This document shows positions 42,578 to 59,115 of a DNA stretch of 64,000 bases, piece by piece; the first letter of the stretch is position 1, and the number at the start of each line of letters is the position of its first letter. The translations under genes were made by a program, and so were the position numbers. The notes beneath the pieces are model-generated. The model did not search any database. It was not told the origin of the DNA and was given only the letters and a program-made list of their open reading frames with translations. This DNA comes from Glycomyces tenuis DSM 44171 (GTDB lineage: Bacteria > Actinomycetota > Actinomycetes > Mycobacteriales > Micromonosporaceae), in the NCBI RefSeq assembly GCF_000427885.1, contig NZ_ATYW01000017.1, forward strand, positions 62,001 through 126,000, written 5' to 3'.

Positions 42578-42590
42578 CAGATGATCAGTC

Positions 42591-42625
42591 GAGGCGCGGT
42601 CGTCACATTGTGACGACCGCGCCTC
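42591..42625 (+). terminator. Terminator of tRNA-Trp
   Basis: GAGGCGCGGTCGTCAC and GTGACGACCGCGCCTC form a 16-bp stem around a 3-nt loop, followed by GTTTTCTTTG. Confidence 0.85.
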
Positions 42626-42639
42626 GTTTTCTTTGTCTC

Positions 42640-44165: not shown

Positions 44166-44200
44166 ACTTGTTCCTTGCCATGTTCTTGTACATGGCTCTC

Positions 44201-44245
44201 ACCTGCGGAAACAGATTCCCATAGGCATCGATGAGGCCTGCAGAT
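44201..44245 (+). repeat. Dispersed 45-bp motif, copy A
   Basis: Starts ACCTGCGG and contains TTCCCATAGG then ATCGATGA, ending CTGCAGAT. Five nt later a terminator begins. It lies between divergent abiEi and the DUF4143 gene, so on this strand it belongs to neither gene. Confidence 0.75.
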
Positions 44246-44251
44246 TGAAAG

Positions 44252-44282
44252 GGTCCGAACCGCATGCGGTTCGGGCCTTTTT
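44252..44282 (+). terminator. Intrinsic terminator after motif copy A
   Basis: GGTCCGAACCGC pairs with GCGGTTCGGGCC around a short loop, followed by TTTTT. The U-run shows it works on the plus strand. Confidence 0.8.
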
Positions 44283-44437
44283 GGATGTTGTGATCACGAC
44301 GGTCGCTCAGCCGGGCCCTTTTCCCTGCACTCGCCGTACGAGAAGCGGGCCCGACAGTCGCTACCCCTGAGAAACTTGGTGTCGACACGCCGATAATCTT
44401 GGTACTCAGAGTTCCAGAATCTTGGTATTGTGGCATT

Positions 44438-45691
44438 ATGAGCAGGGAATACATCGCGCGCATCGCAGACCAGTTGGTTGACGATCTCATGGAGGATTTT
44501 CCGGCTGTGCTCATCGTCGGACCGCGAGCGTGCGGCAAGACAACGACGGCTCGGCGTCACGCGCGGACCGTGATCCAGCTCGACCGCGAGGCTGAAGCGG
44601 CGGTTGTGCGCGCCGATCCTGAAGGGGCCCTTGATGTGGACCGGCCGGTGCTGCTGGACGAATGGCAGGTGGCGCCGGGGGTCCTCGGTGCCGTGAAGCG
44701 TGCGGTCGACGCTCGGCCCGGGCCGGGCGCGTTCCTCATCACCGGTTCCGTCCGTTCGGACCTCGAAGCCGAGGGGTGGCCGCTAACAGGGCGTGCGATT
44801 CGGGTCGAGATGTACGGCCTCATCCAAAGGGAGGTCGAAGGGAACGTGGAGGTGGCTCCGCTCTTCGATCGTCTGCGTTCCGATCCCGAGGGAGCGCTAC
44901 GAGGGGCGACGACGGATCTAGCCCTCAACGACTATCTGGACTTCACGATCCGCGGCGGATACCCCGACTCCGTCCTGGCGCCCAGCGCTACTGCTCGGAA
45001 CCGATGGCTCAGGGCATACGTCGATCAGGTGGTCTCGAGGGATGCCGAACTCATCGACGGCGGACGGGATCCGATCAAACTGCGGCGATACCTGCATGCC
45101 CTCTGCCTCAACACCGCCGGGGTCACGGTCGCGAAGACGCTCTACGAGGCCGCAGGCATCAACAGCAGGACCGCGCAGGCGTACGACCGCCTGTTGGGGA
45201 ACCTCCTACTCGTCGAGGAAGTGCCGGCGTGGTGGAACAACCGCTTGAAACGCCTGGCGAAGACGCCGAAACGGTACATCATCGATCCCGCCGTAGCGGC
45301 CGCCGTCCTTCAAGTGGACCGCCAAGGTCTGCGACGCGACGCCGACATGGTCGGGCGGATGCTCGACACCTTCGTCGCCAGTCAGCTCCGTGTCGAGGCC
45401 CGCTTGGGCGAGTCCGATCCCGTGCTGCACCACCTGCGTACGAGCGACCAGCTCCACGAAGTGGACCTCCTTGCCGAGTACCCCGACGGCAGTGTGTTCG
45501 CCTTCGAGATCAAGTCGTCATCGGCGGTCGCCGCCAAAGACGGGCGACACCTGGCCTGGCTCCGCGATGAACTCGGCGACCGATTCCTCGGAGGCGCAGT
45601 CCTGCACACCGGCCCGCGTTCGTTCACTCTCGGCGACCGGGTGATCGCCGCACCGATCGCCGCCCTCTGGTCTCGACCGACGTCGACCTAG
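44438..45691 (+). CDS. DUF4143 AAA-type ATPase (1)
   Basis: 417 aa. Walker A GPRACGKTT (28-36), Walker B RPVLLDEWQ, ITGSVRS sensor, then the DUF4143 region with VTVAKTLYEAAGINSRTAQAYDRLL (winged HTH) and a C-terminal PD-(D/E)XK-like block: EVDLLAEYPDGSVFAFEIKSSS has the E-V-D...E-I-K pattern. Such AAA_14/DUF4143 proteins are mobile, patchily distributed ATPases, some linked to toxin-antitoxin or defence loci. Two AATCTTGGTA direct repeats lie before ATG 44438, which may be leaderless. Flanked by motif copies A and B. Confidence 0.85.
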   Translation: MSREYIARIADQLVDDLMEDFPAVLIVGPRACGKTTTARRHARTVIQLDREAEAAVVRADPEGALDVDRPVLLDEWQVAPGVLGAVKRAVDARPGPGAFLITGSVRSDLEAEGWPLTGRAIRVEMYGLIQREVEGNVEVAPLFDRLRSDPEGALRGATTDLALNDYLDFTIRGGYPDSVLAPSATARNRWLRAYVDQVVSRDAELIDGGRDPIKLRRYLHALCLNTAGVTVAKTLYEAAGINSRTAQAYDRLLGNLLLVEEVPAWWNNRLKRLAKTPKRYIIDPAVAAAVLQVDRQGLRRDADMVGRMLDTFVASQLRVEARLGESDPVLHHLRTSDQLHEVDLLAEYPDGSVFAFEIKSSSAVAAKDGRHLAWLRDELGDRFLGGAVLHTGPRSFTLGDRVIAAPIAALWSRPTST

Positions 45692-45725
45692 AGCGAATGG
45701 TTCCAATCGGGTGCGCACGACCGTG

Positions 45726-45770
45726 ACCTGCGGGTACAAGTTCCCATAGGCCTCGATGATCCCTGCAGAT
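45726..45770 (+). repeat. Dispersed 45-bp motif, copy B
   Basis: ACCTGCGGGTACAAG followed by TTCCCATAGGCCTCGATGA and TCCCTGCAGAT. It begins 34 bp after the DUF4143 stop and is followed 4 nt later by a perfect hairpin. Confidence 0.78.
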
Positions 45771-45774
45771 CGCT

Positions 45775-45808
45775 GAAGGGCCTCTCCGGTATGTCGGAGA
45801 GGCCCTTC
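45775..45808. terminator. Terminator hairpin after motif copy B
   Basis: GAAGGGCCTCTCCG and CGGAGAGGCCCTTC form a 14-bp stem between convergent DUF4143 genes. Its sequence is unrelated to the hairpins of copies A and C apart from the GAAGGGCC edge. Confidence 0.8.
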
Positions 45809-45885
45809 ACTTTCCCCATTCGAGTTGCCGGGCGCACGTCGATCGCTGCCGAGTTGCGGTGGGCCTCAATGCGTCGAAGCGGCGG

Positions 45886-47151
45886 TCACGGCAGGGGCGC
45901 GCCACCCCAGAGCGCTGAGAGGGGAACGGCTGCCATGTCAGGTCCGAACGGCCGCAGCTCCTCACCCAGGTAGAGGACATAGCCCGCGCGGAACCGGTCA
46001 CCGAGTCGATCACGCAGCCAATGGAGGTGCTTGAACGAGTCGGACCGCACCGTCGCCGAAGCCTTGACCTCGATGGCGACTACCGCTCCGTCTCTGCGTT
46101 CGAGTACGAAGTCGATCTCGCGGCCGTCCCTGTCGCGGTAGAAATGCAGTCCAGCCCTGATCGCGCTCACTGTGAGCTGTCGGGTCAGCTCGGCGAACAC
46201 GAAGGTCTCCACCAGCGGTCCCGCGAGCGGGTGCCCAGGGGCGGACACCGCTTCCAGATCCGCCCCGAGCAGCGATGCCGTCAGACCCGAGTCGGTGACG
46301 TAGGCCTTCGGGGTCTTGATGAGCTTCGAGGTCAGGTTGGTCGACCACGTCGGCAGTTTCGCGGTCAGGTAGACGATGTCGAGATAGCCGAGGTAGTCAC
46401 GGACGGTGGCGTGGTTGAGCTCGAGGCTCCTGGCGAGATCGGAAAACACCAGGTTCGACCCGCTACGCGCGGCGACCAGGCGCAGGAGTTGCGGCACCAG
46501 GTTGGCATGGCGAACGTCTGCGAACTCCGCGACGTCCCGCAATACCACCGTGGACACATAGCTGTCGAACCAGTCCGCGCGAAGCGATTCGGACCGGATT
46601 CGGATCGCCTCCGGATAGCCTCCCTCGCAGATGAGTTTGAAGTAGTCGCCCCTACCCCACTGCGATGCCGGCGATGAGTGCAACAATCGCTCCCGATCGA
46701 ACAGGAGCGCAGGCGCATCCACCTCTGACCTCGTCCGCTCGGCGGCGCTCAACGGCCAGAGATCGACGAACACGGCTCGCCCCGCAAGCGACTCTGACAA
46801 TGTCGGTACCGTCAGAAACCGCGTCGAGCCCGACAGCACGAACTGGCCGGGCGCATCGTCGAGATCCATGAGCCGCTTGACCGCGAGCAGAAGATCATCG
46901 CCACCGCGTTGGACCTCGTCGAAGATCCGCGGCGCCGAACCATATCCTGCGAATCCCGACGGGTCGGCCCGGACCGTCTGGAGAACGGTCGGATCATCGA
47001 GCGTCGCGAAGGTTCCGCCTCGTTCAGCATGCAGCTGCCGCAGCAGCGTGGTCTTTCCCGCTTGCCGAGGACCACCGACCACGACCGCTCGGAACGCGTC
47101 AACGCGCTCGTTCAAATGGGCGAGCGCTCGGCGAGGCAGAAGGTTCGACAT
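45886..47151 (-). CDS. DUF4143 AAA-type ATPase (2)
   Basis: 421 aa. Walker A GGPRQAGKTT (26-35), Walker B APRIFDEVQ (73-81), LSGSTRFL sensor, C-terminal REIDFVLERRDGAVVAIEVKAS with the PD-(D/E)XK-like E-I-D...E-V-K pattern and DYLGYLDIVYLTAKLPTW typical of DUF4143. It is only distantly similar to the 44438 protein, so the two are not a recent duplication, yet they lie tail to tail with motif copies on each side. Start ATG at 47151. Confidence 0.87.
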   Translation of the reverse strand: MSNLLPRRALAHLNERVDAFRAVVVGGPRQAGKTTLLRQLHAERGGTFATLDDPTVLQTVRADPSGFAGYGSAPRIFDEVQRGGDDLLLAVKRLMDLDDAPGQFVLSGSTRFLTVPTLSESLAGRAVFVDLWPLSAAERTRSEVDAPALLFDRERLLHSSPASQWGRGDYFKLICEGGYPEAIRIRSESLRADWFDSYVSTVVLRDVAEFADVRHANLVPQLLRLVAARSGSNLVFSDLARSLELNHATVRDYLGYLDIVYLTAKLPTWSTNLTSKLIKTPKAYVTDSGLTASLLGADLEAVSAPGHPLAGPLVETFVFAELTRQLTVSAIRAGLHFYRDRDGREIDFVLERRDGAVVAIEVKASATVRSDSFKHLHWLRDRLGDRFRAGYVLYLGEELRPFGPDMAAVPLSALWGGAPLP

Positions 47152-47313
47152 GCGGCGACGATATCAGACGAATTTATGATCGTAATAACAGATCTGCCGA
47201 TACTACAGTCATAGTTTCGCCGAACTTCTGATCCCAGTTCGGCCGCGCTCAACGCTGGTTACAGCTACCACCTTCCAGCCAGACTGACCACCATGCGGGT
47301 ATGAAGGGCGTCT

Positions 47314-47358
47314 ACCTGCGGGAACAAGTTCCCATAGGCCTCGATGATCCCTGCAGAT
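47314..47358 (+). repeat. Dispersed 45-bp motif, copy C
   Basis: ACCTGCGGGAACAAG followed by TTCCCATAGGCCTCGATGA and TCCCTGCAGAT; nearly identical to copy B. GGGAAC-AA-GTTCCC inside it is a perfect small hairpin. Confidence 0.78.
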
Positions 47359-47363
47359 GCATA

Positions 47364-47395
47364 GAAGGGCCCAGGCCGAATGGCCTGGGCCCTTC
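47364..47395. terminator. Terminator hairpin after motif copy C
   Basis: GAAGGGCCCAGGCC and GGCCTGGGCCCTTC form a 14-bp stem. It also lies 49 bp past the stop of the leftward sigma factor gene and could serve that gene. Confidence 0.8.
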
Positions 47396-47443
47396 ACTGT
47401 CGTTGTCGCTGATTCCGGGGCGCGGCACCGGTTGGGCCGTGTT

Positions 47444-48370
47444 TCACCACCGACTGAGTTTCGCGGGGTTGCGCACCGCCCAGATGCGGGTGATGCGGTC
47501 GCCCTCGAAGTCGAACGCGTACACCGACACGGTGACGCCGCCCAGCTGTGCGATGAGGCCGGGCTGGCCGTTGACCGTGCTTTCCAGGAACTCCATCTTG
47601 CGGAGCCGGCTCTCGAACGGGGCCAGGGAGCGCACGATCTGCTCGGCACCTTCGACCGGGCGGAGCAGCGCACTGGCGGCACCGCCGCCGTCGACGATCG
47701 CGGTGACGTCCGGGTCGAGCAGGCCGATGAGCGCGTCGATGTCCTTGGCCTCCCAGGCTCGCTTGAGGTCTCGGACGATCGCGGCGCGCCGGTCCGCGGA
47801 CGCGGCGGGCGCGCGCTCCCCGCGGACGCGGCGGCGGGCCGATGAGGCCAACTGGCGGCAGGCCGCCGGTGAACGCCCCACGACCTCGGCCACGTCGTTG
47901 AAGGGATAGCGGAAGACGTCGTGCAGGATGAACGCGACGCGCTCGGCCGGGGTCATCGACTCCAGCACGACGAGGAACGCCATGTGGACCGACTCGTCGA
48001 GGGTGATCCGGTCGGCCGGGTCGACCGCCGCGGCGCCCGAGGGGCCGACGTCCCGCTCGGAGAGGTCGGGCAGCGGCTCGGGAAGCCATTCGCCCACATA
48101 GGTCTCCCGTCTGGACCGCGCCGAGTTGAGCAGGTTGAGGCAGATGCGGCTGGCGACCGTGGTCAGCCAGGCGCCGGGTGAACTGATGTCGTCCCGCTGC
48201 TCCGGGGACATGGCGCACCACCGGGCGTAGGTCTCCTGCACGACGTCCTCGGCGTCGGCGAGGGAGCCGAGGAGCCGGTAGGCGACGTTGATCAGCTGGG
48301 GCCGCTCGCCCATGATCGCGCTCAGGTCCGGATCGGCCTGACCGTGCTCCGGCCCGAATCGGTTGGTCAT
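47444..48370 (-). CDS. sigJ: ECF RNA polymerase sigma factor, SigJ/ECF41 type with SnoaL-like domain
   Basis: 308 aa. Sigma region 2 (INVAYRLLGSLADAEDVVQETYARW) and region 4 (FILHDVFRYPFNDVAEVVGRSPAACRQLASSARRRV), then a C-terminal NTF2/SnoaL-like domain (AWEAKDIDALIGLLDPDV...). That extra domain is the built-in regulator of ECF41-type factors, which have no anti-sigma factor. ECF41 genes usually neighbour a small enzyme or a DoxX-like target gene, and a DoxX-like gene is divergent here. It controls its own set of genes together with that partner, by inference. Confidence 0.9.
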   Translation of the reverse strand: MTNRFGPEHGQADPDLSAIMGERPQLINVAYRLLGSLADAEDVVQETYARWCAMSPEQRDDISSPGAWLTTVASRICLNLLNSARSRRETYVGEWLPEPLPDLSERDVGPSGAAAVDPADRITLDESVHMAFLVVLESMTPAERVAFILHDVFRYPFNDVAEVVGRSPAACRQLASSARRRVRGERAPAASADRRAAIVRDLKRAWEAKDIDALIGLLDPDVTAIVDGGGAASALLRPVEGAEQIVRSLAPFESRLRKMEFLESTVNGQPGLIAQLGGVTVSVYAFDFEGDRITRIWAVRNPAKLSRW

Positions 48371-48436
48371 GGCATGCCGCCCGTCATCCCGCTCCCCCTC
48401 TCGCTTCGGTCCTCACCGTTCCGACATGACAGCACG

Positions 48437-48473
48437 CTGGAATGTGAGGTCGTCGCGTCACCTCACATTCCAG
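48437..48473. promoter_or_regulatory. 14-bp perfect inverted repeat between sigJ and the DoxX-like gene
   Basis: CTGGAATGTGAGGT (48437-48450), 9-bp spacer, then its exact complement (48460-48473). The right arm overlaps a possible ECF promoter for the DoxX-like gene (GTCACC and, downstream, TTGTCGTA). It looks like the operator of a dimeric repressor not encoded nearby. Confidence 0.65.
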
Positions 48474-48552
48474 AGGGCTCGATTGTCGTACTGGTGTAGG
48501 GCGGCGTGCTGCTCAGGGCACACCGACCGGACCGAAATGACGAGGAGCCGCC

Positions 48553-49164
48553 ATGCCGACACGAACGACCCACGACTTCCCACGCGCGACCGTCGAGCGC
48601 TCGACGGCGCGCAGCGGGCCGGGCCGATTCCGATCGATCGCCTTCTGGGCCGTGACCTTGGTGGTCGCCTACGAATTGGCTTCTGGGTCGGTGTGGAACC
48701 TGGTGCCGATCACATGGGTCGAAGTCCAGCTGCACCACCTGGGCTACCCGCACTACTTCGCCCACATCCTGGGCGCGGCGCAACTCGGCGCGGCCATCGC
48801 GATCGTGGCGCCCGGCCTCCCGATCCTCAAGGAATGGGCGTATGTGGGCTGCTGCTTCCTGTGGGTGGGCGCGGTGGTGTCGCACCTGATCGTCGGCGAC
48901 GACGTTCAGACGTGGTCGGTGCCGCTGGGTTTCGGGGCCCTCGCCATCGCCTCGTGGGCGCTGCGCCCCGCCGACCGCCGCGTGCCCCGAACAGGCAGGG
49001 GCGCCGACGAGCCGGGGACCGGCGCCTGGGAGATCCGCCCGCGCGCCTGGGTCGTCCCGCTCGTCGTCCTCGTCGTCCTGTACGCCGTCTCCATCCTCAC
49101 GCTTCCCATCTTCGATGACATGACGTACCAGTGGGCGGTCGACTACGGCTGGATCACCGAATAG
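48553..49164 (+). CDS. DoxX-like membrane protein
   Basis: 203 aa with a hydrophilic start and about five membrane helices. ELASGSVWNL, LHHLGYPHYFAHILGAAQLGAAIAI and LKEWAYVGCCFLWVGAVVSHLIVGD match the DoxX-like family (PF13564). DoxX-like proteins are frequent partners of ECF41 sigma factors and may link to redox or thiol stress. GAGGAG lies 8 nt before ATG 48553. Divergent from sigJ, sharing the inverted repeat. Confidence 0.82.
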   Translation: MPTRTTHDFPRATVERSTARSGPGRFRSIAFWAVTLVVAYELASGSVWNLVPITWVEVQLHHLGYPHYFAHILGAAQLGAAIAIVAPGLPILKEWAYVGCCFLWVGAVVSHLIVGDDVQTWSVPLGFGALAIASWALRPADRRVPRTGRGADEPGTGAWEIRPRAWVVPLVVLVVLYAVSILTLPIFDDMTYQWAVDYGWITE

Positions 49165-49329
49165 CCGCCTTGCCGAGGATTCGCAGCCACGCCCTGGACC
49201 GGCCGGATCAGGTCTCGCTTGGTCGGTACTCGCCGATCACTTCGATGAGGCCGATGATGTGGCGGTTGAACTCGTCGAATTCAGCACTCGCCATGCATCC
49301 GGTTTGCGAGCGGACGGGCGCTGGACGAG

Positions 49330-49803
49330 CCGGACCGTGTGGGAACCACTGACGTCCGGTTTCAGGATCTCGCGGGCGACCGCCGCACAGCGAGTGCACG
49401 AGGTGATCGACCTGCTGGCCGCCTGCGCCCCGAAACCGCAGTCCGGGCTGCGCCGGGCCAAGCGCTTGGGCCGGGCTTCGTCATCCTCGACGGCACCCTC
49501 GTCCGCTGCGACCGGCTCGCGGCCGATCGGCCGTTCTACGCCGGCAAGCACCGGTCGTGCGGGATGAACCTCCAGGCCATCGCCGATCCCGATGGGAACC
49601 TGCTATGGGCCTGGGGCGCGATCGGCGGCTCAGTGCACGATGTCAAGGCCGCCTGGATCTGGCAGGTGCCGCGGCTGCTGCGCGAGCACGGCCTGTTCGC
49701 CCTCGCGGACACGGCCTACCAGGGCCTCGACGTCGACCTGGTGATCACGCCCTGCAAGGGCGAAGGCAAGCCGACTCGCCCCAATCGGGTCCTCGCGCCC
49801 TGA
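49330..49803 (+). pseudogene. Transposase remnant, IS5-like (DDE_Tnp_4) with frameshift
   Basis: Frame 1 shows FRISRATAAQRVHEVIDLLAACAP (HTH part). After about 49470 the reading moves to another frame with FVILDGTLVRCDRLA, FYAGKHRSCGMNLQAIADPDG, HDVKAAW and ADTAYQGLDVD, the DDE catalytic core. The N-terminal third and the last part are missing, and no inverted terminal repeats are seen. So it is a dead, truncated copy. The region 49165-49330 before it has no supported gene. Confidence 0.8.
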
Positions 49804-49946
49804 GGCCCGCCGATTCAGTCGCCGAAGTGGTCGTTCAGAACGCGGAAGCGGTCGAGTACGTCCTGACGGAACAGACTCCCGTGGCCAGCCGCCGCGCGGG
49901 GTACGGCAGCTGCGGGTTCAGGCCGCTCACCGGATACGGTTCATGT

Positions 49947-50402
49947 ATGGCCTACAGCTATTTCTCTCAGGACGATGCTTCGGCCGCCCTCCAGTCCACG
50001 CTCGCGCATGCGCAGCGTCTCCCCGCATTGTCGGCACTGCTCGACGGCGACCTGCTGTGGGACCGGTCGGCGCACCAGCTCGTGTTCATGGTCGATTCCT
50101 GGATCGACGGCACCGGATACGGGCGTCGCATGCACACCTGCACGGACCGCCGCGTCATCGACGACATCGACCTCGTGCGCGGGTTCTCCAACGGCACCAA
50201 GACCGCCGACCCCGAACTCGTGAACGCGGCGGCCGACGAGGTCCTCGATATCATCGGCGCCTGCATCTCCGCGGTCGACAGGTCCGCGGCGTCGGCCGCG
50301 ATCACCGCGACGCTCCATGGCGGCCTGGCGGAGTCCCCGTCTCGAAAGCCGATGTTCACAGCGCTGCGGGCACGGCAGCTCGAGCGTACGGCCCAGCGCT
50401 GA
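49947..50402 (+). CDS. Hypothetical protein, 151 aa
   Basis: Unrecognised. ATG at 49947; the open frame upstream is transposase debris in another frame. The product is soluble, helical and acidic, starting MAYSYFSQDDASAALQSTLAHAQRL and ending basic. No catalytic motif or Cys cluster. GC3 is gene-like. It stands alone between the dead transposase and motif copy D. Confidence 0.5.
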   Translation: MAYSYFSQDDASAALQSTLAHAQRLPALSALLDGDLLWDRSAHQLVFMVDSWIDGTGYGRRMHTCTDRRVIDDIDLVRGFSNGTKTADPELVNAAADEVLDIIGACISAVDRSAASAAITATLHGGLAESPSRKPMFTALRARQLERTAQR

Positions 50403-50729
50403 GCAGGAGGCGAGAGCCGACTCGATCGCGGAATGACAGGTGGCTCGCGAGACCTTCGGAACAGTCCGGGCGCTCCGTGTACGCCCATCCGGGGCTCGGC
50501 GCTTCACTGATGGCGCAGACAATCCGATGTCCGATGAGCGCTCAAGATCGCTACTTCGGGATACAGGTCCCCATAGACCTCGATGATCCCTGCAATGTGA
50601 TGTATCAGAACATGAAAAACGGTCCGATCCTGCAGGGTTCGAGCCGCTCGCCGTTCGTTGGCATGCGGGTCCTTCGGGCCAGTCGGCGGCCCGGTGTCCG
50701 CCTATCCTGCCGGCGGGATCGACGAGACA
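50403..50729. other. Intergenic region holding motif copy D
   Basis: No gene supported. It contains motif copy D at 50553-50597. A short GATCCT/AGGGTTC pairing follows near 50625-50640 but no clear terminator. Confidence 0.45.
50553..50597 (+). repeat. Dispersed 45-bp motif, copy D (diverged)
   Basis: ACTTCGGGATACAG then TCCCCATAGACCTCGATGA and TCCCTGCAATGT; about three quarters of positions agree with copies B and C. It lies on the same strand as the others. Confidence 0.65.
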
Positions 50730-52142
50730 TCAATCGGGAACGGGCTCGCCCAGGCCTGAGAACAGCTTCAGGGTCTGCGTCGACGGGTAGTCGGACAAGG
50801 AGGCGATCCCGTGAGCGAGGTCGATGGGCGCCAGAGATCCCTCGTGCAGATAGCTGACCAGGTGCGGCAGGGTGGCGACGATTCGATGAAAGCCGATGAA
50901 GTCCTCAGGATGTGATGGTTTCTCTAGTTCATCGAGGTACTGTCCGGTGGGGATGTTGAGCACAAGCGAGAAGTTCGAATCGAGCCGGACCAGGATCTTC
51001 TCACCGTAGTTGGTGCGCTTCCCGTAGAGATTCTCCATCTGCGGTGCCCGCTGGACCTTCTCCCGGATGTACCGATGGGACAGGATCGCGGTCTGCGGCC
51101 ACTTGGTCTCTTGCCCAGCGTGCAGCGCCCGGCGTTCGTCTTCGAGGTGGTCGAAGAGCATTCCGGACTTCTCCTGCCCCATCAGGTGGATGGTGACTCC
51201 TTGCCGCTTGGCGTACTCCAGCAGTTCCCGAAGCCGTCTGGTCAATTTCGCATACTGCCGAGGGAACATGAGCGGGCCGTCCTTGACCAGCAGGGTGTTC
51301 TCCAGGGTCGCGAAGTCTCCGCGCTCCCAGCAGTGCTGGATGAACGAGACCAGCAGGAGCATCTCGTGGATGGCCATATAGGCGCTCGCGACCGTGTCTC
51401 GGGCCGACTCCTCGTTCATATCGAGGTGAAGGCCGGGTACGTCGGTGATGTAGACCGGCTCACCACACCTCAGGTTGGGGCACTGCGTCTCGTCCACCCC
51501 ATGTGGAAGGCCACCGGTCAGGTTGTCGCAGTGCGGGCATTCGACGCCGGGGCTGGGTTCATCAGATGATTCCCACTGCTTGTAGAGCAGCCACTTCAAC
51601 GCGTCATGAAGCAGGCCGCCGTGCTCTTCGCGGAGGATGTCCCGGACGATCTCGCGGATCGAGCGGTACACCGCTCCGGCCTCGCCGAACCGTTCCTCCA
51701 GGGACACGTTGCGCAGCGGGAACACGGCATTGCAGTGAAGCGCGGAGTCGCTCATGAGCCGCTCCATGTGGAGCGGATGCGGGGCGTGCGGGTCAATCCG
51801 CTCGGTCTCGGCCCGGCTCAGCTTGAACAGGGCCGTCTTGACGAAGCAGATCTCGCGCATCCTGTCGTCGGAGGTGACCCGTTGGAGCGAGTCGATGATT
51901 GACTCCACCAGGGCCCAGGCCTCCGAAGCTGAGAGCTTCGTCTGCTCACCGTCCCGCCGGCCCGGCGTCCCCGAAGACAGACCCGCGGCGCCACCGGTGT
52001 CGAAGCGCGCCCTCCAGTTCCGGACCGACCCGCGCGAGACTCCGAACACCCGCACCGCCTCGGCAGTGCTCATGCCGTCCCCTACAGCGGCCATCACTCG
52101 CTTCCGCAGCACTTCCTGCTGCTGGGGCGAGAGCCTGCGCAT
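50730..52142 (-). CDS. IS630-type HTH fused to a zinc-ribbon/NurA-like domain
   Basis: 470 aa from ATG 52142 (GAGGGTGG 4 nt upstream). Residues 1-65: MRRLSPQQQEVLRKRVMAAV...MSTAEAVRVFGVSRGSVRNW, the DNA-binding head of IS630/Tc1-type transposases. No DDE domain follows. Instead there is a helical region, a four-Cys zinc ribbon (C202, C205, C221, C226), and a C-terminal part with LLVKDGPLMFP (Asp288), LRELLEYAKRQGVTIHLMGQEKSG and a final SLAPIDLAHGIASLS, which follow the NurA nuclease pattern. NurA nucleases resect DNA and occur in phage-defence modules with HerA-type ATPases; none is next to it. Divergent from an APH-like kinase gene. Confidence 0.6.
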   Translation of the reverse strand: MRRLSPQQQEVLRKRVMAAVGDGMSTAEAVRVFGVSRGSVRNWRARFDTGGAAGLSSGTPGRRDGEQTKLSASEAWALVESIIDSLQRVTSDDRMREICFVKTALFKLSRAETERIDPHAPHPLHMERLMSDSALHCNAVFPLRNVSLEERFGEAGAVYRSIREIVRDILREEHGGLLHDALKWLLYKQWESSDEPSPGVECPHCDNLTGGLPHGVDETQCPNLRCGEPVYITDVPGLHLDMNEESARDTVASAYMAIHEMLLLVSFIQHCWERGDFATLENTLLVKDGPLMFPRQYAKLTRRLRELLEYAKRQGVTIHLMGQEKSGMLFDHLEDERRALHAGQETKWPQTAILSHRYIREKVQRAPQMENLYGKRTNYGEKILVRLDSNFSLVLNIPTGQYLDELEKPSHPEDFIGFHRIVATLPHLVSYLHEGSLAPIDLAHGIASLSDYPSTQTLKLFSGLGEPVPD

Positions 52143-52302
52143 GTCCACCCTCAGATCATCGCCCACACCAACCACACGCGATGATCAACCGATAAGTTTC
52201 GGATCAATACGAGTTCCCACGGGCCGCTGTGAAGTCTGTGAACCGGGAGCGGCCCGGTTAACCTGTTGGCGCGGTGAGGGGCGCTGCCGTGATACTGCTC
52301 GG

Positions 52303-53244
52303 ATGACGAGCGATCAGTATTGGCCCAAGGAGCGGTTCGGGCTCGATTTCCCGAAGTTCTTGCAGCAGTATGGGCTTCAGGCCCGGGGCGAGCCGGTGCC
52401 CTTGACCGGGGGCGAGGACAACCGTCTCGCTCGGATCCCCACCGACCGGGGCGAGGTGGTGATCCGCGAATACCTCCACTCCGGCCGTGCCAAGGTCGGC
52501 GCCGAAGTGTCACTGCTCGAGCACCTCGCCCGAGACGGGTTCCCGACGCCGATGCCGATCTTCCCCAAGGCGGGCGAGCGGGTGGCGTTGGTCGGCGGGA
52601 ACCCGATCGTGGTGTTCCCGTTCGTCTCCGGCCGCGTCCCCGAGGCGATGACGGAGGCGCTGGCCGGCCAGTGCGGGGCCTTGCTGGCCCGGATGCACGT
52701 GAGCACCGAGGGCTGGGCCGACGAGCGGATACCGGTGGTCGACCGCCGCGGCATCCTCGAACAGGCCGCCGCGAGCGACGTCAAGCTCGCGGGGGCGCAG
52801 TTCTGGCGGTCCGAGACACGCGGCTTCCTCGAGCGGAACGCCGCGGCACTGGGGCTGCTCGGCGAGCTTCCCTCCGGCCCTCTCCACCATGACCTGCACC
52901 GGCAGAACGTGCTCGTGGACGGGGACGCGGTCACCGCGGTCCTCGACTTCGACGAGCTCAATCGAGGCCCGCTCATCCTCGATCTCGCCCGATGGTGCCA
53001 TTACGCGGCGCTCGAACAGGACGACATGCGGCTGCCCGCCGCCCTCGTCGAGGCGGCCGTGGCCGGCTACCAGAGCGTCAGGCCCCTCACCGGCGCCGAG
53101 CTGAAGATGCTGCCGTTGGCACTCGACCTCGCCGGCATCGTCGACGCGGCGGGCTTCGTCATGTGGGCCGCACCGTATCTGGGCCTGGAGTCGATCAGCG
53201 AGTGCCGCAGCTGGAAGGCCTACCTCGCGAACTGCGACTCCTGA
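52303..53244 (+). CDS. Aminoglycoside phosphotransferase/homoserine kinase-like protein
   Basis: 313 aa. The catalytic loop HHDLHRQN (195-202) and the DFDE metal motif (215-218) define the APH/ChoK-like fold; VVFPFVSGRVPE and LARMH are typical of homoserine-kinase-II or SrkA-like members. Substrate unknown; a small-molecule or protein kinase. ATG at 52303 is likely leaderless, with TGATACT about 6 nt upstream. It shares a 160-bp divergent region with the HTH-NurA-like gene. Confidence 0.82.
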   Translation: MTSDQYWPKERFGLDFPKFLQQYGLQARGEPVPLTGGEDNRLARIPTDRGEVVIREYLHSGRAKVGAEVSLLEHLARDGFPTPMPIFPKAGERVALVGGNPIVVFPFVSGRVPEAMTEALAGQCGALLARMHVSTEGWADERIPVVDRRGILEQAAASDVKLAGAQFWRSETRGFLERNAAALGLLGELPSGPLHHDLHRQNVLVDGDAVTAVLDFDELNRGPLILDLARWCHYAALEQDDMRLPAALVEAAVAGYQSVRPLTGAELKMLPLALDLAGIVDAAGFVMWAAPYLGLESISECRSWKAYLANCDS

Positions 53245-53410
53245 GCCCAGAGAGCGGGCTTCGCGGGCCGGTCGAGCTCGTCATGGATGCGTCATGGATT
53301 CGACGGCGGCGAGAAGGACCGATCGAGGACGCGCACCGGCACGCTTTCCCTGTTCGCAGTGCGTCGCAGTGCGACGGCGAGAGATCTGCACTCGAAGGAA
53401 GTGATTCGCC

Positions 53411-53851
53411 ATGGGCGACAGGATCAGCTACAGCCCGGAGCACATCAGGGAAGTCGGGGAGACCGTCTGCCCCGACATCGCGAACTTCTACGACGACGTC
53501 GGCTACAAGGCGGCCGAGGCCGGGCGCGTGGGGGCTTCGGTCTTCGGCGACCACGGCCTGGGCGAGACCTGGACGACCTTCTTCAACCTCTACTACGACG
53601 TCGTCTACGAAACGGGGTCCAACACCCGCGCCATGGGCCGGACCCTCACGCAGATCGCGGAAGATCAGGAGATCCTCGAGGGCGAACTGGTGAACACGTT
53701 CGGGCAGATGGAATCCGAGATCGACGCGGGCGGATACACCTCGACGCCCTCGACCAGCTACCCCGAGGCGCCCTTGAAAGCCCCCGCGCCGGAGGACAAG
53801 GACGAGAACCCCTACACCGCCGAACTGGGCGGCCCGGTCCCCGGCCTCTGA
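53411..53851 (+). CDS. WXG100-like small protein
   Basis: 146 aa. Two helices with GLGETWTTFFNLYY around a W-containing turn, then an acidic Pro-rich tail (YPEAPLKAPAPEDKDENPY). GAAGGAAG lies about 7 nt before ATG 53411. No signal peptide. The following gene starts 48 bp on, so the two probably form an operon. The small-large pairing resembles ESX substrate pairs; no secretion core genes are in the window. Confidence 0.65.
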   Translation: MGDRISYSPEHIREVGETVCPDIANFYDDVGYKAAEAGRVGASVFGDHGLGETWTTFFNLYYDVVYETGSNTRAMGRTLTQIAEDQEILEGELVNTFGQMESEIDAGGYTSTPSTSYPEAPLKAPAPEDKDENPYTAELGGPVPGL

Positions 53852-53899
53852 CCCGCCCCGACCGCTTTCAAGGTCCTGCACGACGAAGGAGCAAGCCGC

Positions 53900-54961
53900 A
53901 TGAGCGCCTATCAACCACTCGACTTCAACTCGCTGGCGGAGGCGACCGGCGACATCCCCCAGATGATCGCCGACCTCCGCGACCCCTTCTTCGACATGTA
54001 CCAACGGGAGATCGCGATCGCGAAATGGCCGGCCTACGCCGACGTCATCAGGCTCAGCAAGGAAGAGGCGTGGCGCCGGATCGGCATCGGCCCGGGCCAG
54101 GGCATCCCGAACTCGGACAACCCCCTGAACCACCGGCAGCCGAGCCGGCAGTCGAGCATCCTCCCGTTCTTCGTGCCCCAGGAGGCGACCGCCGCGGAGG
54201 AGCAGGCGATCGCCGACAGCGGAGCGGCCAGCGCGACCTCGGCCGTCGACGAGATCCGTTCGGCGTTCGACGAGGTGCTGGAGAACGGCTCCCTGGCCGC
54301 GGCGGACACCTTGCTCCAGAAGCTCTCCGCCGCGGGCGAGTCGGTCGATCACCTCATCGAGACGCATGACCGGGGCGGGTTCGCGAAGGTGGAGGACCTG
54401 TTCGACGCCTGGGACGGGCGCGACTCCGAAGCCGGCGCGGAGCAGTTCGGCGAGCGCCTGCGGACCGCGGCGGGCCTCCACCGCATGATGACCGCGCAAC
54501 TGATACAGGGCGGCTCCGCCGAGTGCGCCGCCAAGCTCACGACGCAGATGTACCTGGGCTCGACGCTCAAGAGCGTTCACGAGCAGATCGACGAGCTCAT
54601 GACCGGCACGAGCACGCTGGTGAAGGTCCTCGTCCGGACCGCGTTCAACGAGATTCCCCACTCGGGGGGCATCGTCAGCCTCCTCGACGGCCTCCTCGAG
54701 CAGCAGGGCAGCGGCGAGACCGCGGCCGGCAACTGGCTCACGGCCGCCTTCGGCAAGCTCGACATGGAATACGACATGGGACTGGAACCGCAGAAGGGTT
54801 CGGTTCTGCGTCAGCAGCTCCTCGCCGCCGCCGCGTACTGCAAGGACACGCTGAAGAACGCCCGTGACGAGGCGCAGCGGGGCCTGGGCATCGACCTGAG
54901 CACCTGGCAGGGCTTCTTCCCTCAAGCGGCGAACGTCCTCATCCCGGGCGAACCCGTCTAG
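53900..54961 (+). CDS. Large helical protein paired with the WXG100-like gene
   Basis: 353 aa, almost all helical, without signal peptide or membrane helix. It begins MSAYQPLDFNSLAEATGDIPQMIADLRDPFFDMYQ. The middle (about 85-190) is Ala/Glu-rich, and the end reads LGIDLSTWQGFFPQAANVL. No toxin motif is seen. It probably is the long partner of the 146-aa protein. A comparable pair lies at 29270-30908, but the sequences are unrelated. Confidence 0.6.
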   Translation: MSAYQPLDFNSLAEATGDIPQMIADLRDPFFDMYQREIAIAKWPAYADVIRLSKEEAWRRIGIGPGQGIPNSDNPLNHRQPSRQSSILPFFVPQEATAAEEQAIADSGAASATSAVDEIRSAFDEVLENGSLAAADTLLQKLSAAGESVDHLIETHDRGGFAKVEDLFDAWDGRDSEAGAEQFGERLRTAAGLHRMMTAQLIQGGSAECAAKLTTQMYLGSTLKSVHEQIDELMTGTSTLVKVLVRTAFNEIPHSGGIVSLLDGLLEQQGSGETAAGNWLTAAFGKLDMEYDMGLEPQKGSVLRQQLLAAAAYCKDTLKNARDEAQRGLGIDLSTWQGFFPQAANVLIPGEPV

Positions 54962-55077
54962 GCAGTGTTCGAGAGGTCGATGCGCGCACCGGGCGAGTCG
55001 GATCCGCCCGGCGGTCGGGCCGGGCCCGCCGGGACGGCCATCGACTCGCAGGACACCAGGGCCGGCCGGCACTGAGT

Positions 55078-56010
55078 TCAAGCGGATCCTGGTGTCGCCG
55101 CCCGCGAAGAGGGCCGGCTGTTCGGGGCGGTCTCGGCAGCGCAGTCCACGAAGGCGCGCACCCTGCCGGTTTCGTTGGATTCGAGCCAGACCGGCGCCCA
55201 TTGGAGTTCAGGCGCGCCGGTGATCGGCAGGTAGACGACGCCGGGGCGCGGGTAGAAGCGCGCGGCGTGCGCGCCGACCGGAAAGACGCCCTGTCCAGCG
55301 GCGACCAGCGCCAGAATCTCCGAGAAGGTCTCCGCCACCGGGCCCGACCGCACCGGGCGGCCCGAAGGGGCCGTGGCGGGGACGCGGTAGCGGATCGCCG
55401 CCTCGGGGAGGCCGCTGGGGTGGATGACCGGATGGGCTGCGAAGGCCTCAGCGGTCGCCTGCCGTTCGCGCGCGAGCCGGTGGCCTTCGGGGACGGCCAG
55501 CACGAGCGGCTCGGTGAACAGCACCGGCCCGACCCGCACCCCCTCGACCGGAAGGGCGGTGATGAGCACGTCGAGCTGCCCGGACACGACGCGTTCGCAG
55601 GCGTCGTGGAGCTGCGCCTCGTGGAGGTGGACCCGGCAGTCCCGGTATCGGCCGCTGAACCGGTCGACGGCCGAGAGGAGCGCTTGACCGGCCGCGGCGC
55701 CGACGAAGCCGACGTGCAGCTCCCCGGCGAGTCCGCGTCCGGCCTCGACCGCGCGCCGCTCGGCCGCGTCCATCTGCGCCACCAGTGGACGCAGCTCCGT
55801 CGCCAGCCGGGCGCCGATCGGGGTGGCCGCGACGGTGCGGCTGGTGCGGGTGAACAGCGGGGCGCCGATACGGCGCTCGAGGCGCTTCACTATGCGGCTG
55901 ACCTGTCCGGTCGACAGGCGCAACCGCTCGGCGGTCCGGCCGAAGTGCAGCTCCTCGTCGAGCGTCAGCAGCACTTCGATGTCAGTGCGTTCGAGCACCT
56001 CAGCCTCCAT
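55078..56010 (-). CDS. LysR-family transcriptional regulator
   Basis: 310 aa. N-terminal HTH (DIEVLLTLDEELHFGRTAERLRLSTGQVSRIVKRLERRIGAPLFTRT), then a type-2 periplasmic-binding effector domain with LHVGFVGAAAGQALL, LDVLITALPVEG and VLAVPEGHRL. Its start codon is 3 bp from the palindrome TTGCGTCGGACGCAA (56013-56027), a classic T-N11-A site, so it should control itself and the divergent DUF998 gene. Confidence 0.9.
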   Translation of the reverse strand: MEAEVLERTDIEVLLTLDEELHFGRTAERLRLSTGQVSRIVKRLERRIGAPLFTRTSRTVAATPIGARLATELRPLVAQMDAAERRAVEAGRGLAGELHVGFVGAAAGQALLSAVDRFSGRYRDCRVHLHEAQLHDACERVVSGQLDVLITALPVEGVRVGPVLFTEPLVLAVPEGHRLARERQATAEAFAAHPVIHPSGLPEAAIRYRVPATAPSGRPVRSGPVAETFSEILALVAAGQGVFPVGAHAARFYPRPGVVYLPITGAPELQWAPVWLESNETGRVRAFVDCAAETAPNSRPSSRAATPGSA

Positions 56011-56012
56011 CG

Positions 56013-56027
56013 TTGCGTCGGACGCAA
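56013..56027. promoter_or_regulatory. LysR-type operator
   Basis: TTGCGTC-G-GACGCAA, perfect 7-1-7 palindrome of the T-N11-A type, touching the LysR start codon and lying 165 bp before the DUF998 gene. Confidence 0.7.
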
Positions 56028-56191
56028 CGACTGTAGCCGGAATCGATCTTGATGGCGGCGCGGGCGGCGCGCAGAGTGGTCTTCGCATACGGCACCGGGA
56101 CCTGCCGCGGAATCGTCGCCCGCGATGAATCCGCGCCCGCCGCCTCGTCTAACCGGACAGCACCCATCACCCGCCACAAGGAGCACTGCTC

Positions 56192-56860
56192 ATGACCACC
56201 GTGACCACCACCCGCCCTCTGGCCGCCCCGGCCGCGACCGCCGCCGTCCCGCGCCGACTGCTGGCGTGCGGAGTACTCGCCGGGCCGCTGTTCGTCGGCC
56301 TCACCGTCGCCCAGGCCGCGACCCGCGACGGCTTCGACCCGGTCGTGCACCCGCTGAGCCTGCTCAGCCTCGGCGAGCTCGGCTGGATCCAGATCGCGAA
56401 CTTCGTCGTCTCGGGCCTGCTGGCCCTGACCGGAGCGGTGGGACTCCACCGCTCGCTCGCAGGCGGCCCCGCCGCCACGTGGGGCCCGAGGCTGTTCGGC
56501 CTCTACGGGATCGCCCTGGTGTGGGGCGGCGTCTTCGTCGCCGACCCGGCCTTCGGCTACCCGCTCGGCACCCCGGACGGCGCTCCCGCCGAGCAGAGCT
56601 GGCACAGCGTCCTCCACGCGTTCGCCGCCCCGGGAGCCTGCCTCACACTGTTCGCCGCCTGCTTCGTCTTCGCGCGCCGGTTCGAGCGCGAACGCCGCAC
56701 CGCCTGGCGCGCGGTCTGCCTCACCGTGCCGGTCCTGTACCTGGCGCTCACGGCGGCCTCCTTCGCCGCGGCCGACTACCGGTTGATGCTCGCCGGCGGC
56801 GCGCTCATCTGGCTGTGGGCCTCGGCCCTCACGTTCCAGCACCTGCGCTCGGTTCGCTAG
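56192..56860 (+). CDS. DUF998 integral membrane protein
   Basis: 222 aa with six hydrophobic helices. RDGFDPVVHPLSLLSLGELGWIQ and FVADPAFGYPLGTPD are the DUF998 signatures. Function unknown. ATG at 56192 has AAGGAG 10 nt upstream. It is the likely LysR target and is followed 41 bp later by the DUF4287 gene. Confidence 0.88.
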   Translation: MTTVTTTRPLAAPAATAAVPRRLLACGVLAGPLFVGLTVAQAATRDGFDPVVHPLSLLSLGELGWIQIANFVVSGLLALTGAVGLHRSLAGGPAATWGPRLFGLYGIALVWGGVFVADPAFGYPLGTPDGAPAEQSWHSVLHAFAAPGACLTLFAACFVFARRFERERRTAWRAVCLTVPVLYLALTAASFAAADYRLMLAGGALIWLWASALTFQHLRSVR

Positions 56861-56901
56861 CGCAGACCGACCACCCGACGACGACCCCACGGAGGATTCC
56901 C

Positions 56902-57129
56902 ATGACCACGCCGCCCAAGGGCCCCACCTCGTACTTCCCTTCGATCGAGCGGACCCACGGCCGAGCGATCGCCGACTGGCTCGACGACATGCGGGCGAGC
57001 GGCCACACCGGACACAAGGCCCTGGTCAACTGGCTCAAGGCCGAGCACGGCCTCGGCCACGGGCACGCCAACGCGCTGACCGCCTACCACCTCAACCCCG
57101 GGAAATGGCCCGAATACCGGGCGACGTAG
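56902..57129 (+). CDS. DUF4287 domain protein
   Basis: 75 aa. SYFPSIERTHGRAIADWL and HKALVNWLKAEHGLGHGHANALTAYHL match DUF4287, a short helical domain often found alone or with DUF5655. Role unknown. GGAGGA lies 6 nt before ATG 56902; probably in an operon with DUF998. Its stop is 11 bp from the stop of the convergent sigma gene. Confidence 0.88.
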   Translation: MTTPPKGPTSYFPSIERTHGRAIADWLDDMRASGHTGHKALVNWLKAEHGLGHGHANALTAYHLNPGKWPEYRAT

Positions 57130-57140
57130 GCCCCGCCCCG

Positions 57141-58364
57141 TCAGGGGCGGCACGCGGCGGCTCTGCGCAAGAGGTATCGCTGCTCGGGCATGCTCGTGGC
57201 GAGCCGTGCCGCCTCCAGGTAGGCGGTGCGGGATTCGTCGATGCGGCCCGCCCGCTCCAGCAGGTGCGCCCTGACCGCGTGCAGGCGGTGGAGCGGCTCC
57301 AGCTTCCGTTGCCGCATCAGCGGTTCGAGCATCGACAGGCCGGCGTCGGGTCCCTCGGTCATCGCGACGGCCACGGCGCGATTCATGGTGACCACGGCCC
57401 CCGGCGCGACGGCGTCGAGCATTCGGTAGAGCTCGGCGATCTGCGGCCAGTCCGTGTCGGCGTAGTCGGCCGCCTCGTCGTGGACGGCGGCGATCGCCGC
57501 TTGGAGCTGGAACGGCCCGACCGGGCCGGTCGGCAGCGCGTGCTCCACGAGCGCCACGCCTTCGGCGATCATCGCCCCGTCCCACCGGGCGCGGTCCTGC
57601 TCGGCCAGCGGCACGAGTTCGCCGCGGTCGTCGACTCGCGCCCTCGCCCGCGCCTCGGTCAGCAGCATCAACGCCAGCAGGCCGGCGGTCTCGGTGTCGC
57701 TGGGCAAGCGGCGCCGAAGTTCCCGGGCGAGCCGGATCGCCTCCCGGGTCAACGAGATGTCGAGCAGCTCGGTTCCGGCGCTTCGGGCGTACCCCTCGTT
57801 GAAGATCAGGTACAGCACCTGGCGCGCCGACCGCACCCGCTCGGGCAGGTCGTCCGCGCCGACGTCGCCGAGACTCGCGTCCGAGGCCGACAGCTTCGCC
57901 TTGGCCCGGCTGATCCGCTGCGCCATGGTGGCGACCGGCACGAGGAACGCCGAGGCGATCTGCTCGGTGGTCAACCCGCCGACCGCGCGCAGAGTCAGGG
58001 CGACCTGGGAGGCCTCGGAGAGCGAGGGGTGGCAGCACAGCAGCAGCACATGCAGCGAATCGTCCCGTTCGGCGCCGGAGCGGCGGGGAGTGGGGTCGCG
58101 TTCTGCGGCGGTCTCGCGAGCCGTGCGGGCCTGGTCGCTGCGCTGGGCGTCGATCAGCCGCCGCGACGCTGCCCGGACCAGCCAGGCGCGGGGGTTCCTC
58201 GGCAGCCCTTCGCGCGGCCAGTGCAGCGCCGCCGCGATCAGCGCCTCCTGGACGGCGTCCTCGCAGCGGTCGAAGTGCCCGTAGCGGCGGACCAGCGCCC
58301 CGAGGACGTGCGGCGACTCGCGCCGCCACACCGCCTCGAGGTCGCCGTCCGGAGTCTGGACCAT
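57141..58364 (-). CDS. ECF42-type RNA polymerase sigma factor (DUF6596)
   Basis: 407 aa. Sigma region 2 (YGHFDRCEDAVQEALIAAALHWP) and region 4 (GLTTEQIASAFLVPVATMAQRISRAKAKL), then a long TPR-like C-terminal domain (LIFNEGYARS..., AIAAVHDEAADYADTDWPQI, LYRMLDAVAPGAVVTMNRAVA). This layout is ECF42, which works without an anti-sigma factor and with a DGPF/YCII protein encoded next to it. The start is 4 bp from the stop of the YCII gene, so they are one operon. Confidence 0.93.
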   Translation of the reverse strand: MVQTPDGDLEAVWRRESPHVLGALVRRYGHFDRCEDAVQEALIAAALHWPREGLPRNPRAWLVRAASRRLIDAQRSDQARTARETAAERDPTPRRSGAERDDSLHVLLLCCHPSLSEASQVALTLRAVGGLTTEQIASAFLVPVATMAQRISRAKAKLSASDASLGDVGADDLPERVRSARQVLYLIFNEGYARSAGTELLDISLTREAIRLARELRRRLPSDTETAGLLALMLLTEARARARVDDRGELVPLAEQDRARWDGAMIAEGVALVEHALPTGPVGPFQLQAAIAAVHDEAADYADTDWPQIAELYRMLDAVAPGAVVTMNRAVAVAMTEGPDAGLSMLEPLMRQRKLEPLHRLHAVRAHLLERAGRIDESRTAYLEAARLATSMPEQRYLLRRAAACRP

Positions 58365-58368
58365 GCCC

Positions 58369-58761
58369 TTACCGCTCCTCGCCGCCCGGCCACATCGCCG
58401 GTCGCAGCTCGATCGTCTCGCCGGGCCCGGAGAAGGCGTGCGCGATCTCCTGGGCGCGTTCAGGGCCGGCGACGTCGATCAGGAAGAACCCGGCCAGGTG
58501 CTCCTTGTACTCGGAGTAGGGGCCGTCGGTGGCCAGCGGCTCGCCGTCGCGCCAGCGGTAGAGCGTCGACGTGGTCGGATCGCCGAGGGCCTCTCCGGTG
58601 ATCAGCTCGCCGTTCTCCTGCATCTCCCCCAGCAGCCGCTCGAACTCGGAGTTCAGCCGCTCGCGCTGCTCGGCGGGCAGGGCCTGGTTCTCGGCGACGA
58701 AGTCGCCGGTCGGGTGCCCCCACGGCTGGGGGTTGGAGTGGATCAGAATGACGTACTTCAT
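58369..58761 (-). CDS. YCII/DGPF-domain protein, ECF42 partner
   Basis: 130 aa. MKYVILIHSNPQPWGHPTG and ATDGPYSEYKEHLAGFFLIDV carry the DGPF motif of YCII-related proteins, which are co-encoded with ECF42 sigma factors and are usually their main targets. Small alpha/beta enzyme fold, activity unknown. ATG at 58761 follows AGGAGG at a 6-nt gap. An ECF-type promoter lies 50-80 bp upstream. Confidence 0.93.
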   Translation of the reverse strand: MKYVILIHSNPQPWGHPTGDFVAENQALPAEQRERLNSEFERLLGEMQENGELITGEALGDPTTSTLYRWRDGEPLATDGPYSEYKEHLAGFFLIDVAGPERAQEIAHAFSGPGETIELRPAMWPGGEER

Positions 58762-58813
58762 GGTGACCTCCTGGCCATCGTCATCGGGCCGGACTTTCCG
58801 GCCGCTCACCTGA

Positions 58814-58843
58814 GACGACGGAGCCGCACCGCGGTTCTCGACA
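58814..58843 (-). promoter_or_regulatory. ECF42-type promoter of the YCII-sigma operon
   Basis: Minus strand: TGTCGA (58843-58838), 17-bp spacer, CGTCGTC (58820-58814). TGTCGA and CGTC are the elements described for ECF42 autoregulated promoters. Confidence 0.6.
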
Positions 58844-59070
58844 TCGTCTGCCGCCTCACCCGGAAAATGCTTCACCGGCGCCGCCCGCCTGGGCGTTCCC
58901 CGGCTCGGCTCCGCGATGAACTCGACTGCCGGTCCCCCGGCAAAGCCCGCAGTGACCGACTCACGGCCGATCTGGTGCCCCGGTCGGAGACATCGTAGTT
59001 CAACAGTTCGGCGGACTGCTGAGCCAACGCTGCGGGCACATGCATCGTTAAGCGACCATGCACGGCCACT

Positions 59071-59115
59071 ACCTGTCGAAAGAAATCCACATAGGCCTCG
59101 ATGAGGCCTGCCGTG
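59071..59115 (+). repeat. Dispersed 45-bp motif, copy E (diverged)
   Basis: ACCTGTCGAAAGAA then TCCACATAGGCCTCGATGA and GGCCTGCCGTG. GGCCTC-GAT-GAGGCC is a perfect hairpin in this copy. No terminator follows. Confidence 0.65.

Follow-up and report, generated by a model that had tools for sequence, protein, structure and literature searches.

The 64,000-nucleotide stretch of Glycomyces tenuis DSM 44171 analyzed here (the window; its 5.7-Mb genome is labeled G000, and G, L, and C labels denote genomes, loci, and contigs, respectively) raises the question of what a short motif is that stands in it five times behind a tRNA-Trp gene. A preliminary description of the sequence had listed five same-strand copies of the motif (A to E) and none elsewhere in the window, and a core scan agreed on both points. 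Cores with at most 2 mismatches each were located on the plus strand at 44216, 45741, 47329, 50568, and 59086, compared with 0.02 expected; none of 100 shuffles reached five, and no further copy was found on either strand of the window with up to 3 mismatches. A sixth, weak copy suspected at 49219-49261 stayed below 9 bits in a profile of the motif and was given up. As detailed below, each copy is very probably the right border of a cassette that was put behind tRNA-Trp by a tRNA-targeting large serine recombinase (LSR), and the motif would comprise the severed 3' end of the LSR gene (the tail) together with a P half-site.

The preliminary description had also proposed a search of the genome and its relatives, the outcome of which depended on the method. 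A 17-base pattern with at most 1 mismatch matched only these five copies in the whole genome, whereas a protein profile detected two extra related copies in the same genome, in a second array on contig C13 that lies behind tRNA-Gln and contains YoeB/YefM. With up to 3 mismatches, the pattern matched in 11 of the 22 genomes of the genus. A profile built from 17 translated copies found 30 places with E below 1e-3 in 15 of the 22 Glycomyces genomes; the DNA was inspected for 29 of them, G103:C12 being left out. Among 150 genomes of the family, matches (E up to 0.01) were confined to Glycomyces and two other genera. On contigs holding tRNA-Trp, all 16 copies with E below 1e-3 were situated downstream of this gene on the same strand, and a half-copy in G099 was likewise downstream of tRNA-Trp on the tRNA strand. 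Half-motifs consisting of the outer part only (LFPQVTAL-type), without the core, were seen in the own genome and in another genus (L126 7814-7849 and L133 about 1501-1536).

Translation of the minus strand gave a frame that was close to AG[LI]IEAYGNL[FY]PQVxALHxRL in most copies. The frame was evaluated by a codon test on 33 distinct tails from 37 rows, after removal of two mis-oriented rows, one half-motif, and one row matching positions 13-23 only. The frame contained 0 stops, and of its 4397 single-change codon pairs 2541 were synonymous (0.58 versus 0.28 expected), with the reservation that related copies do not give independent pairs. The five remaining frames had synonymous fractions of 0.12-0.36 and 9-33 stops. 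Mean column entropies for codon positions 1, 2, and 3 were 0.88, 0.64, and 1.15, so that the third position was the most variable, and the difference between positions 3 and 2 was met by 16 of 20000 column shuffles. A start codon upstream of the tail was not conserved, and L065 has a stop 4 codons before the Ala-Gly codons. Coding constraint in combination with these two features therefore pointed to a fragment of a coding region. For the same two reasons, a leader peptide or small open reading frame was dropped as a candidate. Once the codon pattern was seen, an RNA acting on an outside target as antisense or guide was considered as well, and the finding of the LSR frame led to its rejection. 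A hairpin within the motif was noticed by eye and, again by eye, judged not to be maintained. The tail peptides had no matches in PDB and Pfam. A tblastn search for a parent gene returned one match at E 4 in phages and none in plasmids, and no confirmed relative was found on viral contigs, where seven exact pattern sites were unrelated sequence.

The origin of the fragment became apparent from the other genomes. A metQ-like gene and the tRNA-Trp gene beside the array had a match in all 22 genomes (partial in G114). The sequence after tRNA-Trp was of several kinds in the relatives, with a uniform start point after ..CCTGC. As first gene, 8 of the 22 genomes carried an LSR reading towards tRNA-Trp (7 whole and 1 partial, L157). 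The 7 whole LSRs measured about 517-539 codons up to the junction; in all 8, the frame was open across it (..SDNAGL, then GCA GG). The tails start with the same frame and Ala-Gly codons. Because frame and Ala-Gly codons are shared, the motif was read as the LSR gene 3' end, severed by integration. The minus-strand coding option of the preliminary description thus stands as to coding without a start codon; in place of a degraded gene family, the motif appears to be the end of a protein gene, namely that of a serine integrase. In G109, ~16 kb downstream of tRNA-Trp, the 3' half of this tRNA is present a second time as a 48-nt copy, with a copy of the LSR gene 3' end behind it; a further tRNA 3' fragment is located ~48 kb downstream (L148 16220-16267 and G109:C10:83486). 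These are signs of other islands or of duplication at the same tRNA.

The same arrangement was not restricted to tRNA-Trp. LSR relatives were present in 21 of the 22 Glycomyces genomes, and the window's own genome has an LSR at tRNA-Pro. Of twenty further LSR loci analyzed, 4 had no tRNA call and 16 stood next to a called tRNA, which was tRNA-Gln in 5 cases, tRNA-Ala in 6, tRNA-Leu and tRNA-Pro in 2 each, and tRNA-Arg in 1. The Ala total includes L174, for which the tRNA called measures 89 nt and the LSR end looks like the Leu type. In all 16 tRNA-abutting cases, the LSR frame runs on into the antisense of that tRNA. A tail at the other border was found on the same contig for 4 of 5 tRNA-Gln elements (L160-L163) and, among the 5 tRNA-Ala elements whose ends were clearly of the Ala type, for L170 and L169, so that both halves were seen on one contig for 6 of the 16 elements. 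The Ala-type tail reads AYLNP[SP]PQLNTHANQL; L170 has an 11-base core in common with the tRNA end, and the core of L169 has diverged (VDL for VEL). When direct repeats were used to look for the far ends of the non-Trp elements, most matches were chance 9-10-mers, and only L170 gave a meaningful 11-mer. Ten LSR loci were examined in other genera of the family, 4 with a called tRNA and 6 without, and three of these LSRs run into the tRNA (L199 Pro, L214 Met, L216 Arg). In tRNA-Gln elements (L130, L163, L119), the tail is placed directly upstream of a gene starting MCAKRIPGTN.., with the tail stop near the gene start.

A further line of evidence came from the geometry of the attachment sites. In serine integrases, the distance between the crossover and the zinc-domain (ZD) motif is described as 5 bp longer in attP than in attB (PMC3783163). 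The T-loops of the tRNAs were compared with the motif at different shifts. The comparison drew on 34 motif copies, 3 of the 37 rows having been dropped: 22 were Trp (including, by default, loci where no tRNA was visible), 7 Gln, 4 Asn, and 1 Ala, and Trp and Gln were scored. The best shift was +5, at which 121 of 198 letters agreed for the Trp copies and 38 of 63 for the Gln copies. Moreover, the last letters of a motif repeat the 3' end of the tRNA to which it belongs, namely CCTGC (Trp), CCAGC (Gln), GGGGAGC (Asn), and, at the Ala locus L124, CTCCACTGAATCGGA. A crossover at the CC in the Trp and Gln sites would fit the +5 register and would fall in the Ala-Gly codon pair.

Orthologous loci were compared, as the preliminary description had recommended. 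The AbiE pair had 93% protein identity in G110. DUF4143a was found in G111 (94%, C-terminal 191 residues only), G115 (91%), and G103 (74%), DUF4143b in G011 (98%), G103 (97%), and G069 (91%), and the gene designated MAYSYF in G069 (86%), G115 (84%), G106 (79%), and G049 (52%). Units with a recognized tail were AbiE-A in G000 and G110, DUF4143a-B in G000, G103, and G111, DUF4143b-C in G000, G103, and G069, and MAYSYF-D in G000 and G069. Gene plus motif units recurred in other orders in relatives: the window has AbiE-A, DUF4143a-B, DUF4143b-C, and G103 has DUF4143b and then DUF4143a. Cargo elsewhere included YoeB/YefM, AbiEii with an Rv0078B-type antitoxin, PDC-S27, and PDC-S11. The cargo is often, but not always, of defense or toxin-antitoxin type; a sigma factor and other genes are located between copies C, D, and E. 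When 10 proteins were submitted to PADLOC, 3 had no match (MAYSYF, YoeB, and a PIN_8 protein), and the match of the TIR protein of L085 was weak. MAYSYF, which is likely cargo in several species, is a candidate defense or toxin gene.

From frame continuity, coding constraint, attP/attB geometry, cassette borders, and target tRNAs, all read from the DNA itself, the following scheme was derived. On an excised circle, attP would lie inside the LSR gene, which would be complete with its tail, the last roughly 25-40 codons being encoded past the crossover. Such elements would insert at tRNA 3' ends in Glycomyces, and integration would sever the gene at the Ala-Gly codon pair. The catalytic part, int(N), would be left beside the tRNA, its frame entering the tRNA antisense and thereby acquiring a new tail. 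The original tail, int(C) (AGLIEAYGNLFPQVTALHTRL-type), would remain at the far border, where it meets the sequence that formerly followed the tRNA, usually with a terminator immediately behind it. In the window, the LSR body would have been lost from the cassettes or never been part of them; they would carry other genes plus a tail-bearing half-site. Since no LSR is present in the window, we infer that these int-less cassettes are mobilized in trans, probably by LSRs of related elements, which would explain why gene plus motif units recur in different orders. The scheme implies that recombination takes place in the cell and that the tail may matter for the circular form. Because catalytic and DNA-binding domains remain in int(N), the activity of the LSR may change rather than vanish upon integration, and the tail may act as a switch of this activity.

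Several observations weigh against the assignment of the motif to a severed LSR. A search for LSR relatives found none in the window, and the border is eroded at copy E and in G104. The DUF4143b cassette in G011 has no recognizable motif, and the same applies to DUF4143a in G115 and to MAYSYF in G115, G106, and G049. For 10 of the 16 tRNA-abutting LSRs, a tail was not identified in the stretches inspected; L168 has a tail-like stretch without the core, and in another genus the broken LSR L213 (Gln) stops short of the tRNA. No intact LSR-plus-tail gene or circular form was seen, and the LSRs had no match in phages and plasmids at 1e-30. An intact-junction pattern matched 16 places in Glycomyces genomes, all with 3 mismatches, one of them being a known motif copy. 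In the shift comparison, the runners-up were +11 (0.51 for Trp, 0.48 for Gln) and -1 (0.48 for Gln). Finally, constraint was weaker in orthologous int-less cassettes (synonymous.38-.61 versus.19-.27 expected, 8-26 codons each) and in Asn cassettes (.31 versus.25), as would be expected if these tails serve only as half-sites or are drifting.

This weaker signal would also fit a different explanation, in which the LSR has no need of the tails, which are left as inert scars and look coding only because they descend from diverse elements. In agreement with it, Pfam placed the Resolvase, Recombinase, and Zn_ribbon_recom domains of two LSR proteins of related genomes entirely within int(N). Two findings, both with small numbers, argue in the opposite direction. 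In the tails of tRNA-Gln elements with an LSR on the same contig, 8 of 11 single changes were synonymous (.73 versus.26 expected), and two of these tails, those of L130 and L131, had their ending in common up to the stop codon. We consider inert scars doubtful, although they are the least improbable of the rival explanations.

The copies in the window are direct repeats spaced 1.5-8.5 kb apart, and cassettes could in principle be shuffled by homologous recombination between them instead of by a recombinase. The left end of the DUF4143b cassette makes this improbable. Terminator included, it follows copy B in the window and is joined straight to tRNA-Trp in G103 and G011, beginning at the same base in both contexts; tRNA-Trp has only the short core in common with the motif, and it is there, at CCTGCAGAT, that identity starts. 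The right end is recognizable through the motif in G000, G103, and G069, followed by divergence. The earlier proposal that the copies act as cassette borders is supported.

Copies A, B, and C are indeed followed by terminators of unrelated sequence, as first described. The hairpins behind them were strong (shuffle z -5.9, -6.1, and -6.5), whereas that behind D was weak (z -0.9) and none was found behind E (z +0.2); the strongest was the one behind tRNA-Trp. Because the crossover would separate the motif from the terminator, each terminator is assigned to the cassette that follows (or to the tRNA). It would form the left end of that cassette and take the place of the one lost by the tRNA. A family of small RNAs, each with a conserved body and its own terminator, had been suggested by five copies on one strand and the strong terminators behind A to C, but it is highly improbable, given that Rfam at gathering threshold found tRNA only, that the variation follows the codons of the opposite strand, that a cassette left end including its terminator occurs after another motif or directly after a tRNA, and that tRNA-Trp itself has a strong terminator behind it. 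In tRNA-Trp LSR elements, the hairpin is inside the LSR reading frame. A nearly identical terminator hairpin follows different motif types in L124 and L131, which suggests left-end swaps between element families. The features of the array are compiled in Table 1; a DDE_Tnp_4 transposase fragment is additionally present at 49339-49803, between copies C and D.

Table 1. Features of the array behind tRNA-Trp in the window
Feature	Position	Strand	Remark
tRNA-Trp, probable integration target; 3' end gives attB half (..GGTTCGAGTCCTGTCGCCCCTGC)	42505..42578	+	
Left end of first cassette, with terminator hairpin 42590-42626	42579..42632	+	Hairpin shuffle z -7.2
AbiEii toxin, cassette 1; alternative upstream ATG 43542	42640..43506	-	PF08843 1.5e-35
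AbiEi antitoxin, cassette 1	43542..44141	-	PF13338 2.4e-07
Copy A: putative LSR tail (int(C)) and P half-site, cassette 1 right border; core CCTGCA 44237-44242	44173..44244	-	
Terminator hairpin, cassette 2 left end	44247..44282	+	
DUF4143 ATPase (DUF4143a, PDC-S01), cassette 2	44438..45691	+	
Copy B: putative LSR tail and P half-site, cassette 2 right border	45695..45769	-	
Terminator hairpin, cassette 3 left end; same left end directly after tRNA-Trp in G103, G011	45774..45809	+	
Second DUF4143 ATPase (DUF4143b, PDC-S01), cassette 3	45886..47151	-	
Copy C: putative LSR tail and P half-site, cassette 3 right border	47286..47357	-	
Terminator hairpin behind copy C	47364..47395	+	
MAYSYF gene, 151 aa, without Pfam or PADLOC family; followed by copy D	49947..50402	+	
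Copy D: putative diverged LSR tail and P half-site	50522..50596	-	
Copy E: putative diverged LSR tail, without terminator behind	59040..59114	-	

Integrons likewise consist of tandem units of a gene and a recombination site that are reordered between genomes; they employ a tyrosine recombinase and folded attC sites. The Glycomyces arrays resemble them in their tandem, reordered units and differ in having LSR half-sites, tRNA targets, and, in the two proteins examined with Pfam, recombinase domains of the serine type. The closest system is that of the ssrA islands of Dehalococcoides, which are stacked in tandem behind one RNA gene and have a 540-residue serine recombinase, DsiB, beside attL (PMC3146451). 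The 3' end of this recombinase gene invariably overlaps attL, and a stop is encountered only beyond the island border. According to a suggestion of the authors, full function may require the circle or a neighboring island that has the 3' fragment (PMC3146451). Both systems thus have islands in tandem at an RNA gene and a recombinase gene that extends across attL without a stop. In what is reported there for Dehalococcoides, no conserved 3' fragment is shown and the alignments diverge at this position, whereas Glycomyces has a coding fragment at 30 places in 15 genomes; the target is ssrA in the former and tRNAs in the latter, where several cassettes of one or two genes are found.

In archaeal suicidal (SSV-type) integrases, the attachment site is situated in the integrase gene, and integration yields int(N) and int(C); the review in question describes self-disrupting recombinases as exclusively archaeal (PMC8371274). 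An attachment site inside the integrase gene is also what the Glycomyces sequences imply. The SSV-type enzymes are archaeal tyrosine recombinases with the catalytic part in int(C), whereas the Glycomyces enzyme would be a bacterial serine recombinase that has its domains in int(N) and loses the tail only. Mycobacteriophage BPs carries attP inside its repressor gene, and integration removes the C-terminal 33 residues (PMC4557955); there the split gene is the repressor, and here it would be the integrase. Actinomycete integrative and conjugative elements (AICEs) with serine recombinases at tRNA genes are actinobacterial and described as rare (PMC3218068). They have the bacterial group, the type of recombinase, and the tRNA target in common with the Glycomyces elements; a split recombinase or int-less arrays do not figure in the parts of that account covered (PMC3218068). 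In the portions of the open-licence literature covered, no split serine integrase was noticed besides the Dehalococcoides islands, and no paper on a Glycomyces integrase was found. What is new is that a bacterial serine system has a severed tail that is conserved, coding, and in frame, and that this tail serves as a tag of int-less cassettes.

A wider model would be a bacterial serine counterpart of the archaeal suicidal integrases. The full enzyme would exist only on the circle, the swap of its tail for one read from the tRNA antisense would set the direction of the reaction, and half-sites would let int-less defense cassettes accumulate and be reordered in trans behind tRNA genes in an integron-like manner. 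We regard the chances of this wider model as evenly balanced.

The loci point to a bacterial, serine-type case of a self-split integrase, and they contain a conserved 3' fragment such as the authors of the Dehalococcoides study could, in the sections concerned, only suggest (PMC3146451). If the tail controls direction, LSRs would gain a built-in switch between integration and excision, which would be of value in genome engineering. As a short sequence that can be searched for, the tail also tags integrase-less cassettes that would otherwise not be recognized as mobile, and several of the cassettes tagged in this way carry AbiE, PDC-S01, PDC-S11, PDC-S27, or YoeB/YefM.

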